A stretch of 64,000 nt of DNA from an uncultured Microbacteriaceae bacterium (GTDB lineage Bacteria > Actinomycetota > Actinomycetes > Actinomycetales > Microbacteriaceae). Both the position numbers and the translations under genes were made by a program. The notes under the pieces are model-generated. The model made no database searches and was not told where the DNA came from. It saw only the letters and a list, made by a program, of their open reading frames with translations. This document shows positions 7,442-40,960 of this stretch, piece by piece; the first letter of the stretch is position 1, and each line of letters opens with the position of its first letter. The stretch lies in the NCBI GenBank assembly GCA_947487835.1, contig CANKXX010000007.1, positions 62,001-126,000 on the forward strand. Reading direction: 5' to 3'.

Positions 7442-7722
7442 TTTCTCTGTCTCCTTCACCGGCAGGTACGTGCCGGACGATCCGTAGTGAATGGATGTTG
7501 CGATGTGGCGCATCGACGAGGACGTCGTCGGCCACTCGCAACAGTATGCCACGCCGCGGCAGCAGGGAAAGGGAAGGCGTGGGGCGACACGGACGGGGCG
7601 CTGCCGCGCCGCCGCGTCCAGGGGCCGTTTGGTCTATTCCCAGACAGTCGACTTACTATTTCTCCGGCGCATCCGGGGGGACTGCGCCACTGTTCTTTAT
7701 ACGCACCTCGGAAGTGACATCT
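7442..7722. promoter_or_regulatory. Divergent control region between the ATPase and DsbA-like genes
   Basis: 281 bases without a gene, separating two divergent transcription units. In the ATPase leader there is a perfect hairpin CCGGCA-GGTACG-TGCCGG (7459-7476) immediately upstream of its ribosome-binding site, which may be an operator or mRNA structure. Near 7650-7665 the AT-richer stretch TTACTATTT is a candidate -10 for the plus-strand gene. No known regulator box was recognised. Confidence 0.5.
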
Positions 7723-11904: not shown

Positions 11905-12156
11905 GGTGGTACCTCTTCTTTCGGCGGCCCGGCTGACCCTGGGGGTCCCGTGGCTTTGCGTCGCCGGCTCGCGCCGGGTTTGCCTTTGTCGGTGAATGGT
12001 TCGTTCGGTGGTCGCGTGTCCTCGACGAGCGCAGCGGTCACCGGGTCCGAAGATAGCCCCGCGGCGTCCGCCGCACCACCTCGCAATGCGGGATCGACGA
12101 CGCGGAGGCGGCAGCGCGAGAAGCCGGCAGCGCGAGAAGCCAGCGTGAGAAGTGCG
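11905..12156. other. Gap with a short direct tandem repeat
   Basis: 252 bases with no convincing gene. It holds the leader of the TetR-like gene and, near 12110-12150, a 16-base unit GGCAGCGCGAGAAGCC repeated about two and a half times with decay. Nothing else is recognised. Confidence 0.45.
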
Positions 12157-36790: not shown

Positions 36791-37875
36791 CGGAAGCCGC
36801 GTCGCCCATCCGCTTCGGCATCGTCGGCAGCGGCTGGCGGAGCGAGTTCTTCCAGCGGATCGCCCGCGCGCTGCCGGAGCGCTTCGAGATCACCGGCGTC
36901 GTCACCCGTTCCGCCGACCGCGGTCGCGAGGTGGAGCACGCGTGGGGCGTTCCGACGTTCCGCACGGTCGAGCAGCTGGTCGCGACGCGGCCGACGTTCG
37001 TCGTCGTCTCGGTACCGCGGGAGCAGGCCCCGGCCACCATGATCCGGCTCACCGAGCTCGGGGTGCCCGCGCTCACCGAAACGCCGCCGTCGTTGGATGC
37101 GGAGTCGTCCGAGCCGCTGCACCGGCTGGTGGCCGACGGCGCCATCCTCCAGGTGGCCGAGCAGTACCACCTGTCGCCGCTGCTGCGGGCGCAGCTGGCC
37201 GTTGCGGCGTCGGGCCGGCTGGGCGCCGTCAGTCAGGTGCTCGTGGGTCAGTGCCACGACTATCACGGCGTCAGCATCATGCGCCGCGCGCTCGGGGTGA
37301 CCTTCGAGGACGCGACGATCACCGCGTCGGTCTTCCGGTCACCGCTCGCCCAGGGACCGGACCGCACGGGCGACCCGACGGAGGAGAGGAGCGTCACCGC
37401 GGAGCAGGTGACCGCCCGCTTCGCCTTCGGCGACGACCGCCTCGGCGTCTACGACTTCGCCGGCGAGCAGTACTTCTCCTGGATCCGCCGCAACCGGCTG
37501 CTCATCCGGGGCGAGCGGGGCGAGGTGAGCGACCTCGAGGTCAGCTATCTCAAGGACTTCCGCACGCCCATGTTCGGCACGATCCACCGGGTCGAGGCCG
37601 GCCAGGGCGGCAATCTCGAGGGTCAGTTCCTGCGCGGCCTGATCCTGGGCGACGAGTGGATCTTCACGAATCCCTTCCTCCCCGCTCGGCTCAGCGACGA
37701 CGAGATCGCCATCGCCGAGTGCCTCGTGCGGATGAGCGACCACGTCGACGGGGGCCCGCCGTTCTACAGCCTGGCCGAGGCGTGCCAGGACAACTACCTG
37801 GCGCTGCTCATGCAGGAGTCCGCGCGCACCGGGCAGCCGGTGCACTCCCGCCCGCAAATCTGGGCGAGCGCATAG
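36787..37875 (+). CDS. Gfo/Idh/MocA-like protein lacking the usual Lys
   Basis: 362 residues. The N-terminal Rossmann domain starts RFGIVGSGWRSEFFQRIARA. The second domain has the family's mixed sheet (e.g. RFAFGDDRLGVYDFAGEQY). The family motif EKP is replaced by TETPPSL (near residue 99), removing the Lys usually needed for catalysis or substrate binding. It may thus act in a different reaction or bind without redox chemistry. The GTG start overlaps the kinase stop (GTGA), so translation is coupled. Last gene of the operon. Confidence 0.85.
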   Translation: MTEAASPIRFGIVGSGWRSEFFQRIARALPERFEITGVVTRSADRGREVEHAWGVPTFRTVEQLVATRPTFVVVSVPREQAPATMIRLTELGVPALTETPPSLDAESSEPLHRLVADGAILQVAEQYHLSPLLRAQLAVAASGRLGAVSQVLVGQCHDYHGVSIMRRALGVTFEDATITASVFRSPLAQGPDRTGDPTEERSVTAEQVTARFAFGDDRLGVYDFAGEQYFSWIRRNRLLIRGERGEVSDLEVSYLKDFRTPMFGTIHRVEAGQGGNLEGQFLRGLILGDEWIFTNPFLPARLSDDEIAIAECLVRMSDHVDGGPPFYSLAEACQDNYLALLMQESARTGQPVHSRPQIWASA

Positions 37876-37926
37876 TCACGCGCGAACGACGGAACCCGCG
37901 GTGGCGTCGCGCTTCCGCTGAGCATT

Positions 37927-37980
37927 TCCTCCACACCCCCCGTAGTGGGGTCCCCCAAGTGGAGGACAACGCGCTATGTT
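37927..37980 (+). promoter_or_regulatory. Palindromic C/G element and -10 upstream of the 6C RNA
   Basis: TCCTCCAC (37927-37934) and GTGGAGGA (37959-37966) form an inverted repeat around ACCCC-N7-GGGGT and a further C5 run. TATGTT at 37975-37980 is a candidate -10 for a transcript starting near 37987. The block CCCCCGTA/GGGG/CCCCC/AAG/GGAC recurs at 40474-40503. It may be a regulator site, or partly the terminator of the operon ending at 37875. Confidence 0.5.
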
Positions 37981-37986
37981 AACTCC

Positions 37987-38138
37987 TGGCGGTACGCGCG
38001 ATCCGATGCGAACCCCGGCCCCCGGCCGAACGGATACCCCCCTACCCGTTCCCGAGTGCGAGCCGGTTTTCGTGGGTCGCCGTGCTCCGAGGCCCGGCTC
38101 CACGACCCCCCTTGTTGGAGCCGGGCCTCAGCCCTTTT
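37987..38138 (+). ncRNA. 6C-type small RNA
   Basis: Matches the definition of the actinobacterial 6C RNA: two stem-loops each presenting six consecutive cytosines. Hairpin 1 is GAACGG-ATACCCCCCTAC-CCGTTC (38028-38051). Hairpin 2 is a perfect 12-bp stem, GGCCCGGCTCCA with TGGAGCCGGGCC (38091-38127), whose 13-base loop holds CCCCCC (38106-38111), followed by TTTT (38135-38138), so it doubles as terminator. The 5' end is placed from a TATGTT box. In mycobacteria 6C RNAs base-pair through their C-rich loops with G-rich mRNA sites. Confidence 0.75.
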
Positions 38139-38479
38139 CCCGCTCCGATCCGGGCTTCTTCTTCTCTTCCATGCCCCCGGTCGCGCGGCTTTCCCGCGCG
38201 CCACGCCGTGCGCCGCCCCATATTGGGGGCAAGACGCCGCGGACCCCGGCCCCCAGAATGGACGAGGACACCGCGGCGGACGCCGCCGCTGGTGAGGATG
38301 GCGACAGCGCTCCGCCCGGTCTTCCAACCGGGGTGCGGGGTCGCTGATCGGGCCCGTGGGGACGGTGCTCGACGCCGTCGGGGGATCACGAGATGGGCCG
38401 AGGGGGACGGGTGTGCCCGCGCTGACGCGCGCGGTCGCCCGCATTTCCTCTCGCTCACCGAACGAGGGAAGAAAACACA
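38139..38479 (+). promoter_or_regulatory. Leader of the M23 peptidase gene
   Basis: 341 bases downstream of the 6C terminator. It contains a palindrome GCCCC-ATATT-GGGGGC (38214-38229) resembling the C/G element near 37.95 and 40.48 kb, and a hairpin-prone GCGCGGCTTTCCCGCGC. Open frames across it are Arg/Pro-rich and look non-coding. GAGGGAAG lies 8 to 15 bases before the GTG start. Confidence 0.4.
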
Positions 38480-40459
38480 GTGCACAAGTCCAACAAGCAG
38501 TCTGCCTTCCGACGGAATGGACGCGGCGCCGCACTCGTCACCGCAGCGGTGATGAGCGGATGCCTCCTGTTCCCGACCGCGGCGCAGGCGGCGACCGGCG
38601 CTCCGGTGCCGGCGACCGACGCGGTGAGCACGGTCACCACCGAGGGCGCGACGCCGTCGGCGACGACCCCGCCCGCGGCACGCACCGGAACGGGGGCGCC
38701 GGCCGCCGCCACGACGCCCGCGCCGACCGCGAGCGCGACCGCGACGCCGAAGCCCGCCACGCCCGCCGCGACCGCGACGCCGAAGCCCGCGCCGACCACG
38801 TCGGCGACACCGGCCCCGGCTGCGACGACCGCTCCCGCTCCGGTGAAGACGCCCGTGAGCGCGCCGGTGGCCACCGCCACCCCGAAGCCCGCCGCGACCG
38901 CGGAGGCGAGCGCCAGCGGGCCGGCCCCGGTGGACGCGACCGCGACCGCGACGACCTGGAGCATCTACAAGACGCCCTACTCGTCCACCATCTACGAGCT
39001 CGTCAACGGCACGACGCCCACGCCGCTCACGTACAAGCGCTGGTCGACCGTGTACGGCAGTGCGACCCCGGGCCGCACCGCGACGGACTACGTGCGCTAC
39101 CCCTGGTCGCCGACCATCTACGCCGTCACCTACTGGCCCGGCGGTGAGAGCGCGTGGCAGTGGGAGGCGCTCAGCTTCGAGCAGTGGCGGACCGCCGGAT
39201 CGCCGACGGCCCGCGCCGCCGGCTGGATCAAGGGCAGCTACTTCTACCAGTGGGCGACGTCGAAGGACATCCTCGTCGAGGGCCCTGACGGCATCAACCA
39301 CGCTCTGACGAACAAGGAGTGGGCCGACTCGGGCTACCGGTCCTTCGACGTCCGCAAGAACGAGGGCTTCCGCAAGCTCTCCTGGGCTCCCGAGATCGTC
39401 CGCTACTCCGACATCGCCGGTGGGCGCGGACGGGCCATCACCGGCTCCGAGTGGTCGGCCGAGGGCTTCCCGCGTCCCGAGACCCTGACGGCGGCTCCCG
39501 GCGGACACTTCCACAAGACCGCCGACGACACGACGATCTGGTACACGGGTCTCGCCCTCGACCGGCCCATCAGCTACGCCGAGTGGGTGGCAGCGGGCAA
39601 GCCGGAGCCCACGGTGACCCAGCCGATCAAGGCCACCAGCCTGTCCGGTGGGAGCCCCATCGGCGCCGTCGAGCAGTTCATCGGGCAGGTCGGCACGCTG
39701 TCCGTCCGCGGGTGGGCGCTCGACCCGAGCGCCACGGGCCCGATCCTGGTCGACGTCTACGTCGACGGGAAGTACGCGGCGACCACCAAGGCCGATCGTC
39801 TGCGCCCCGACGTTGCCGCGGTCTACCCCAAGTACGGGGCTGCCCACGGCTTCACCGTCGACGTCGTCACGAGCTCGGGCAAGCACGACGTGTGCGTCTA
39901 CGGCATCAACACCGGCTCCGGCAGCAACGTGAAGCTCTCCTGCTCCGCCGTGACCGTTGCCGCGCCCGTGTTCCCGAAGGCCAACGTCTCGACGTACAGC
40001 CGGACCGCCAACACCTTCACGAACAACCGGTACGCCGCCGTCCAGTGGCCGTTCCTGACGGGCGTGCCGATCACGGATCGCTTCGGCCCGCGCCCGTACG
40101 TCTGCTCGGTGTGCCAGCCCATCCACAACGGCCTCGACTTCACGCCGGGCAGCGGATCCGACATCGCCGCGATCGCCGACGGCCGGGTCAGCAAGGTCGT
40201 CCGCAGCTCCGCGACGAGCGGCTTCGGGACCTACGTGGTGATCGACCACACGATCGACGGCAGGAAGGTGCAGTCGCTGTACGCGCACATGCTGGTCAAC
40301 TCGCCGGTGTTCTCGGTCGGTGACTGGGTGCAGCAGGGCGACCGCGTCGGCCGCGTCGGCAACACCGGCTCGTCGACCGGGGCGCACCTCCACTTCGAGA
40401 CCATCGTCGAGGGCGTGAAGGTCGACCCCTACGGCTGGCTGACCGAGCACAACCGCTGA
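38480..40459 (+). CDS. Secreted M23 peptidase with aromatic surface repeats
   Basis: 659 residues. Signal peptide with TAAQAATG cleavage site (about 37), then a Thr/Ala/Pro linker with ATPKPA units to about 155. About five repeats of 40-45 residues follow (155-380), each with paired aromatic strands and an LTxxxWxxxG ending (LSFEQWRTAGSP, LTNKEWADSGYR, ITGSEWSAEGFP, ISYAEWVAAGKP). Residues 395-490 form a further beta domain. The C-terminal M23 (LytM) domain has HNGLDFTPG, YAHM and GAHLHFE zinc ligands and should cut peptidoglycan cross-links. GTG start. Confidence 0.92.
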   Translation: MHKSNKQSAFRRNGRGAALVTAAVMSGCLLFPTAAQAATGAPVPATDAVSTVTTEGATPSATTPPAARTGTGAPAAATTPAPTASATATPKPATPAATATPKPAPTTSATPAPAATTAPAPVKTPVSAPVATATPKPAATAEASASGPAPVDATATATTWSIYKTPYSSTIYELVNGTTPTPLTYKRWSTVYGSATPGRTATDYVRYPWSPTIYAVTYWPGGESAWQWEALSFEQWRTAGSPTARAAGWIKGSYFYQWATSKDILVEGPDGINHALTNKEWADSGYRSFDVRKNEGFRKLSWAPEIVRYSDIAGGRGRAITGSEWSAEGFPRPETLTAAPGGHFHKTADDTTIWYTGLALDRPISYAEWVAAGKPEPTVTQPIKATSLSGGSPIGAVEQFIGQVGTLSVRGWALDPSATGPILVDVYVDGKYAATTKADRLRPDVAAVYPKYGAAHGFTVDVVTSSGKHDVCVYGINTGSGSNVKLSCSAVTVAAPVFPKANVSTYSRTANTFTNNRYAAVQWPFLTGVPITDRFGPRPYVCSVCQPIHNGLDFTPGSGSDIAAIADGRVSKVVRSSATSGFGTYVVIDHTIDGRKVQSLYAHMLVNSPVFSVGDWVQQGDRVGRVGNTGSSTGAHLHFETIVEGVKVDPYGWLTEHNR

Positions 40460-40460
40460 T

Positions 40461-40500
40461 CCCCTCAGGGGGTCCCCCGTACGGGGAACCCCCTAAGGGG
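40461..40500. promoter_or_regulatory. 40-base palindrome after the M23 gene (terminator and/or operator)
   Basis: Starting 2 bases after the M23 stop codon, two 20-base arms meet at CGTACG and match at 18 of 20 positions. It is made of nested palindromes CCCC-TCA-GGGG, CCCCGTACGGGG and CCCCC-TAA-GGGGG with centres about 14.5 bases apart. There is no T tract. It can end the M23 transcript, but its similarity to the element before the 6C RNA also suggests a regulatory site. Confidence 0.6.
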
Positions 40501-40503
40501 GAC

Positions 40504-40634
40504 TATGGCGAATCCCCACCGTCGCCTAGATTTCTAGATGTGGGAGCCGGGGGGCTCGCACACAGGGGGGTAACGGTCGCTACCGGGGGGTATGCGACTA
40601 CGGAGAATGCCGCGGACCGGGGGGTCCGCGGCAC
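40504..40634 (+). ncRNA. Candidate G6-rich RNA with terminal hairpin
   Basis: Four runs of exactly six G occur at 40549-40554, 40565-40570, 40585-40590 and 40619-40624. The first and last sit in hairpins: GAGCC-GGGG-GGCTC, and GCCGCGGACC-GGGG-GGTCCGCGGC (a 10-bp terminator-like stem at about 40610-40633, followed by ACTCCTATTT). No open frame is plausible. TAGATT (40527-40532) or TATGGC (40504-40509) might be -10 boxes. The G6 runs are complementary to the C6 loops of the RNA at 38.0 kb. The transcribed strand is not known. Confidence 0.4.
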
Positions 40635-40700
40635 TCCTATTTAACGACCGGGCTGCGCACTCGGATCCGGCCGACTCCGCCGTGGCCGACGCCAACCCGT

Positions 40701-40764
40701 CCCTGAGGTGCCCGACTCGGTCCTTTCCTGCCCCGAAACGGAGCCGAGTCGTGCACCTCACGGG
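40701..40764. repeat. Dispersed palindromic repeat class B, copy 1
   Basis: Left arm GAGGTGCCCGACTCGGTCC (from 40705) pairs with GAGCCGAGTCGTGCACCTC (40741-40759), about 18 bp with two imperfections. The left arm sequence recurs identically at 58132-58150 in another gene gap. It is a REP-like element just upstream of a small membrane-protein gene. Confidence 0.75.
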
Positions 40765-40789
40765 TCGGGCCGGGGCGTAGGGTCGGACC

Positions 40790-40960
40790 ATGGTGGTTCT
40801 GCTGATCGTGCTTCTCGTCCTGTGGGCGATCCTCGCCGTGATCGGCTTCGTCGTGGAGGGCCTCGTCTGGCTCTCGATCATCGCGATCATCCTGATCGCC
40901 GGCACGATCGCCATCGGGTTCGTGCGCCGGTCCATCACCACCAAGCGCAACCGCGTCTGA
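40790..40960 (+). CDS. Small hydrophobic membrane protein
   Basis: 56 residues, MVVLLIVLLVLWAILAVIG at the start, a second hydrophobic segment, and a basic end RRSITTKRNRV. Two short helices with a Glu between them (FVVEGLVWL). Very similar tiny hydrophobic proteins occur widely in actinobacteria. TAGGGT lies 6 bases before the ATG, fitting the near-leaderless pattern, and a terminator follows at once. Too short for routine gene calling; function unknown. Confidence 0.7.
   Translation: MVVLLIVLLVLWAILAVIGFVVEGLVWLSIIAIILIAGTIAIGFVRRSITTKRNRV

Follow-up and report, generated by a model that had tools for sequence, protein, structure and literature searches.

Sponge RNAs of the CsrB/RsmY type consist of tandem hairpins with GGA in their loops, and ANTAR target RNAs consist of paired hairpins whose six-base loops have A in the first and G in the fourth position. 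The 6C RNA of M. tuberculosis reportedly acts independently of RNA chaperones, as the title of a 2019 paper by Mai et al. puts it. In the accessible parts of the respective sources, 6C is described from many genera of the Actinomycetales (PMC4046766), and B11, the mycobacterial 6C with its C-rich loops, represses a reporter via a six-G tract in the 5′ UTR of eccB4, a repression that was abolished by mutating both loops and restored by compensatory changes (PMC10470900). RosA is described, in the available portion of the source, as a G-rich RNA that is free-standing and taxon-restricted and acts as a sponge for C-rich sRNAs (PMC8216469). A literature search that extended to few subscription journals returned no report on switching 6C off or on a 6C sponge and none joining Planctomonas and small RNA, and what it returned on G-rich/C-rich RNA sponges concerned Bacillus or Staphylococcus or was general review. 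To our knowledge, no 6C antagonist has previously been described in Actinobacteria.

The locus analyzed here lies in a stretch of 64,000 nucleotides (the window) from an uncultured member of the Microbacteriaceae, the genome of which (G000) was compared with those of Planctomonas psychrotolerans (G001) and P. deserti (G002), making three Planctomonas genomes in all, each of a different species. The first-pass annotation of the window had described four G6 runs and a terminator-like hairpin and had read them as a possible decoy for 6C RNA. Runs and hairpin are present at the positions that it gave (Table 1), and GC content does not account for the cluster, because the window contains fewer G6 runs (21; 13 on the + and eight on the − strand) than its shuffled versions (mean 79). 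Four G6 runs on one strand within 76 nt did not arise once in 200,000 random placements of the window's runs. The + strand from 40535 to 40644 is predicted to fold at −62.3 kcal/mol (z −6.4; equally stable shuffles 0/200), and in this fold three of the runs, rather than the two proposed earlier, lie at hairpin tips, while the fourth (40565) is unpaired. At each tip the loop is GGGG and two further G's are within the stem. The last hairpin, H3, has a stem of 11 bp at 40608-40633 followed by a weak U-tail, and is the sole terminator-like match within 40400-40800, an interval in which no tRNA or tmRNA and, by a simple scan, no sigma-70-consensus promoter were found. No Rfam family matched at the element. 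In a longer fold the linker also pairs with the 3′ flank, forming a helix that is absent in P. deserti and was left out of the structure.

Table 1. Coordinates of the features discussed, in window numbering unless a contig (C) is named.
Feature	Position	Strand	Basis or remark
msiK RNA motif	7446-7503	-	above Rfam cut-off
c-di-GMP-I riboswitch	11920-11994	-	above Rfam cut-off
C6-loop element, two hairpins (second 38089-38129, terminator-like)	38028-38139	+	upstream of M23; candidate partner
M23 peptidase gene, 659 aa, upstream of the G-element	38480-40459	+	PF01551, E 8.3e-23
Tandem CCCC/GGGG palindromes, operator-like	40461-40501	.	pattern and alignment of six loci
Proximal dyad CCCCCTAAGGGGG, then CT	40489-40501	.	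portion conserved in 6/6 loci
-10 box TAGATT	40527-40532	+	25 bp past dyad
Hairpin H1, GGGG loop	40539-40562	+	fold; holds G6 40549-40554
Linker, unpaired	40563-40574	+	folds; holds G6 40565-40570, cheapest run to pair in the window copy (G000a)
Hairpin H2, GGGG loop	40575-40599	+	10 pairs; holds G6 40585-40590
Hairpin H3, GGGG loop, terminator-like	40602-40637	+	holds G6 40619-40624; tail UAUUUAA
G6 runs	40549-40554, 40565-40570, 40585-40590, 40619-40624	+	four exact runs, span 76 bases
6C-like loci	G000 C3:15556; P. deserti C108:1390472; P. psychrotolerans C1:809420		

All three Planctomonas genomes contain two copies of this element (hereafter the G-element), giving six loci. In G000, one copy follows the M23 gene in the window (G000a) and the other follows an acetyl xylan esterase gene (G000b). 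The copies of P. deserti have the same two locations, the one after M23 being 90% identical to the window element, and in P. psychrotolerans one copy follows the esterase gene and the other has an alcohol dehydrogenase gene on one side and a transporter gene on the other. Three of the six loci were used to build a covariance model (R1) covering the last two hairpins; it recovers all six at 40.9-98.1 bits, with the next match in the genus at 24.5, and the three loci outside its training set score 69.1, 45.6, and 40.9 bits. The order of parts is common to the six loci: a CCCC..A..GGGG dyad, N-CT, a −10 box with an invariant TA..TT placed 25-26 bp from the G's of the dyad, four to six runs of G5-G7, and a last hairpin of the form GCCGCGG.YCGGGGGG.CCGCGGC. 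The promoter-like and terminator-like parts are conserved and the downstream neighbors vary from locus to locus; a convergent TetR gene (Pfam) lies downstream of the esterase-side copy of P. deserti, and G000 has a convergent frame at the same place. As a general explanation, a leader or attenuator acting on the following gene was therefore rejected, given these varying neighbors and the convergent gene on the esterase side.

It is well supported that 40539-40644 (+) represents a small non-coding RNA gene, one of two paralogs in each Planctomonas genome, and conservation suggests a promoter of its own, controlled by a CCCC..GGGG operator, with H3 as the gene's own terminator hairpin. Transcription of the window element would start near 40538-40540 and probably proceeds on the + strand, which is favored because the conserved dyad and the −10 box point that way. 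All six loci went into a sequence-only promoter profile (R2), so that their scores of 40-45 bits are by construction; over 398 genomes of the family, in which 56 genomes in total had matches at E ≤ 0.5, the profile found nothing above 21.4 bits elsewhere. The window's own genome has three occurrences of the tandem CCCC/GGGG pattern, as against one match for the reversed control pattern. Two of the three flank M23, one before the C6-loop element and one before the G-element, and the third is at C1:290042. RamA of Corynebacterium glutamicum binds GGGG/CCCC motifs, according to the accessible part of its description (PMC4847777). Dyads like CCCC-GAA-GGGG followed by CTR recur in other Microbacteriaceae genera (L168, L173, L174, and L175), where nine weak loci were read, some of them with a TA that resembles a −10 box at a similar distance, and such dyads may mark a wider regulon.

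Base pairing in the G-element is kept where its sequence changes. In an alignment of three sequences (A2) all 74 cells are paired and four pairs are changed on both sides; slid control alignments have no such pairs, and 9 of 500 shuffles equal the observed result. Within A2, H2 has 10 pairs, every lettered cell of which is paired, and two of these have both sides changed. Between G000 and P. deserti there are four stem differences in H1-H3, with pairing kept at all of them. These include one compensatory double change in H3, where A 40616 and U 40625 become G and C, and a change of A 40562 to G in H1, by which a U-A pair becomes U-G. The linker G6 is shifted by one base in P. deserti through two substitutions, and its count is still six. 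Runs of at least five G have a perfect flanking stem of at least 5 bp in 17 of 29 cases inside elements vs. 18 of 347 elsewhere in the same genomes' loci, and in local folds they fall in terminal loops in 26 of 29 vs. 138 of 363 cases, where the 29 runs include orthologs and paralogs and are not independent. Folds of the whole RNAs place 24 of the 29 at hairpin tips and leave one run unpaired in each of the two M23-side copies; in G001b, G002b, and G000b the corresponding run is largely base-paired (0.18-0.27 unpaired on average). Sequence identity of the M23-side pair is 0.94 within the element and 0.32-0.48 beyond the terminator. For the esterase-side pair it is 0.36 in the intergenic DNA before the dyad, 0.84-0.94 in the dyad and the first half of the element, 0.74-0.78 in the second half, and 0.76-0.98 in the convergent gene beyond, and it is because this gene follows that conservation continues past the terminator on that side. 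The structure of the G-element is, by all appearances, under selection, and the conservation of G6 runs on covarying stems, which the first-pass annotation had suggested checking in relatives, is found within Planctomonas. A protein-coding role was considered for a GTG frame that spans the element in G000 and P. deserti and was rejected, as five of its six differences are non-synonymous and the frames of the other copies differ. The first-pass annotation, which could read no protein here, was correct in that there is no conserved protein frame.

Beyond the genus, R1 matched 41 of 299 family genomes at E ≤ 0.1, with scores of at least 40 bits only in the three Planctomonas, and gave 20 at E ≤ 0.005 over 396 genomes of the order, the window's own genome counted. 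Three of the 38 non-Planctomonas genomes in the family set were inspected and have ordinary-looking terminators, and the 12 order loci that were read are ordinary terminators or unrelated sequence, including one locus with a single G6 loop (L202) and one with two (L195). Since matches beyond Planctomonas reach 34.2 bits in the family and 37.8 in the order, close to the weakest member (40.9), the R1 bit score alone is insufficient to separate members, which are set apart from outside matches by the promoter and the further G-runs. A triple-G6 pattern matched 63 of 398 family genomes, Planctomonas included, with many of these equaled by the reversed control, and outside the genus the matches listed were, by eye, mostly low-complexity sequence or short tandem repeats. 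An exact-pattern search over genome contigs, possibly excluding the window's own genome, had four matches, all in Planctomonas. No comparable element was found outside Planctomonas in the genomes sampled, where elements with differing stems or loops might escape such searches. The L195 locus (G052 C1:1818666), from another family of the order, has its two G6-loop hairpins just past an apparent CDS end and looks like a double terminator.

The distribution of 6C is much wider than that of the G-element. A survey of the family with stricter filters (E ≤ 0.001), which is an undercount as it missed two of the three Planctomonas, found 6C in 39 of 150 genomes and 28 of 85 genera, with five genomes above the cut-off, and 27 of these 28 genera have no R1 match of at least 40 bits. 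The absence of G6 runs from relatives that keep 6C, which had been named in advance as an outcome that would speak against a decoy, is thus observed outside Planctomonas and not inside it. Because the runs are absent outside the genus where 6C is kept, any decoy role would be a genus-level addition.

The 6C RNA itself had been placed 2.4 kb from the G-element. Hairpins with C6 loops do exist there, yet the 6C covariance model (RF01066) has no match at E ≤ 5 in 37860-40800, which covers both the G-element and the C6-loop element. Around the remaining five copies it has none at E ≤ 1 either; nothing in Rfam exceeds its cut-off there, and the only match of any family is ftsZ-DE (32.2 bits vs. a cut-off of 72.2). 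The C6-loop element, with C6 runs at 38037 and 38106, resembles 6C in design, has a CCCC/GGGG promoter region on one side and M23 on the other, recurs before the M23 gene of P. deserti, and is possibly a second C-rich-loop sRNA or an M23 leader. It cannot be the sole partner of the G-element, because P. psychrotolerans keeps two G-elements but lacks a close ortholog of M23 (48% identity at best). The best 6C match of the window's own genome is on another contig (40.7 bits vs. a cut-off of 47), and each of the three Planctomonas genomes has one such 6C-like match (39.2-40.7 bits, below the cut-off) that folds as two hairpins with a C6 loop on each and is not adjacent to a G-element. Two further loci of G000, L133 (C1:243262) and L136 (C14:6218), are terminator-like hairpins with C6 or C5 loops that score weakly as 6C (32.7 and 29.9 bits) and have CCCC..GGGG dyads ∼180 bases upstream.

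We see a little under an even chance that the G-element is a G-rich sponge for C-rich-loop sRNAs in the manner of RosA, with an inferred partner. The runs at hairpin tips, where the stems vary, together with the linker run, would present G's from the RNA; these would base-pair with C6 loops left exposed in canonical 6C and/or in the element upstream of M23, and such pairing would sequester the C-rich sRNAs from G-rich ribosome binding sites. In all three genomes several G-runs are complementary to the C6 loops of the 6C-like locus of the same genome, which is weak evidence because any G6 pairs with any C6. Pairing energies were predicted with ViennaRNA, opening costs included, with no shuffled control and with kissing loops and quadruplexes outside the model. 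In these terms the linker G6 of the window RNA has a net energy of −11.8 kcal/mol with the 6C loop and −15.7 kcal/mol (9 bp) with the first M23-side C6 loop, the runs at hairpin tips gain about 4-10 kcal/mol, and the best value with 6C is only about −7.5 kcal/mol for G000b, G002b, and G001a. The weak U-tail of the terminator in the M23-side copies counts against the sponge. What survives of the proposed decoy for 6C is a non-coding RNA with G-runs on covarying stems and with complementarity to C6 loops, and what does not is the identification of the nearby element as an Rfam 6C.

The same G-runs and pairing energies would fit a G-rich regulatory sRNA with mRNAs as its direct targets, bound at C-rich stretches of leaders or of coding sequence, as would a free-standing gene with changing neighbors, but four to six repeats of one motif would seem to suit titration better, and we regard direct mRNA pairing as unlikely. 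We are similarly doubtful of a decoy for a protein, which would be a CsrB-like RNA of tandem hairpins with constant loops; these two readings take up most of the probability that the sponge leaves. The near-constant GGGG loops on variable stems and the 24 of 29 runs at hairpin tips are what it predicts, and it would also accommodate the copies in which the runs are less open to pairing. However, the GGGG loops of the window element are not of the GGA type read in CsrB/RsmY, in both M23-side copies an unpaired G6 retains its six G's, and we know of no protein in Actinobacteria that reads GGGG tetraloops. Such tetraloops do not follow the ANTAR loop rule either.

A repeated element or cluster of terminators with no function in trans is very unlikely. 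GC-rich terminators with G6 loops are found elsewhere, as in L202 and L195, but at all six loci here the operator and −10 box are conserved with fixed spacing, the stems show compensatory changes, and each genome has two copies. The G-quadruplex-forming transcript that was also suggested at first has four G6 tracts within 76 nt in its favor; canonical intramolecular quadruplexes, however, have four G-tracts only 1-7 nt apart, which does not fit spacings of 10, 14, and 28 nt, and a quadruplex would have no use for the covarying stems around the G-runs. Long-loop or intermolecular forms are conceivable, and a quadruplex as a whole is extremely improbable. Barely credible is a minus-strand RNA with C6 loops as a second 6C-type RNA, since 40461-40640 folds well on that strand (z −8.5, the palindromes included) but the conserved operator and −10 box are on the + side, conservation on the M23 side stops just past the + terminator, where a minus promoter would sit, and neither strand has an Rfam 6C match.

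Were the G-element a sponge, Planctomonas might possess two RNAs dedicated to antagonizing C-rich-loop sRNAs, and two of the three species might have a C-loop/G-loop pair around the M23 hydrolase with operators on both flanks, a more specific proposal that we consider rather unlikely. If true, a natural antagonist with G-loops would explain how 6C is switched off, and the principle of RosA would have arisen independently in another phylum.

Among known systems, the operators of the RamA type in C. glutamicum likewise have CCCC/GGGG half-sites in the promoter region, in the portion of the source available (PMC4847777), whereas the Planctomonas site is an ordered dyad at a fixed distance from the −10 box and is a candidate operator only. 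With CsrB/RsmY the G-element shares tandem hairpins with a constant loop motif. It resembles 6C (B11 in mycobacteria) in its runs of six at hairpin tips and its terminator-like last hairpin, and differs in having G rather than C on the promoter strand, in its four to six G-runs as opposed to two C-loops, and in the lack of a covariance-model match. From what is accessible of the RosA description (PMC8216469), RosA belongs to another phylum and has other partners, with binding demonstrated, whereas the G-element is known from sequence alone; RosA has three G-rich regions, two of them predicted to be single-stranded, and the G-element has four to six G-runs, the majority of them at hairpin tips. 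It shares with RosA of Bacillus subtilis, a sponge of RoxS and FsrA, and with RsaI of Staphylococcus a restriction to one taxon and several G-rich regions that are complementary to C-rich regions of sRNAs (PMC8216469, same portion). The G-element belongs to no Rfam family and would, as a kind, be a variation on the G-rich sponge RNAs.
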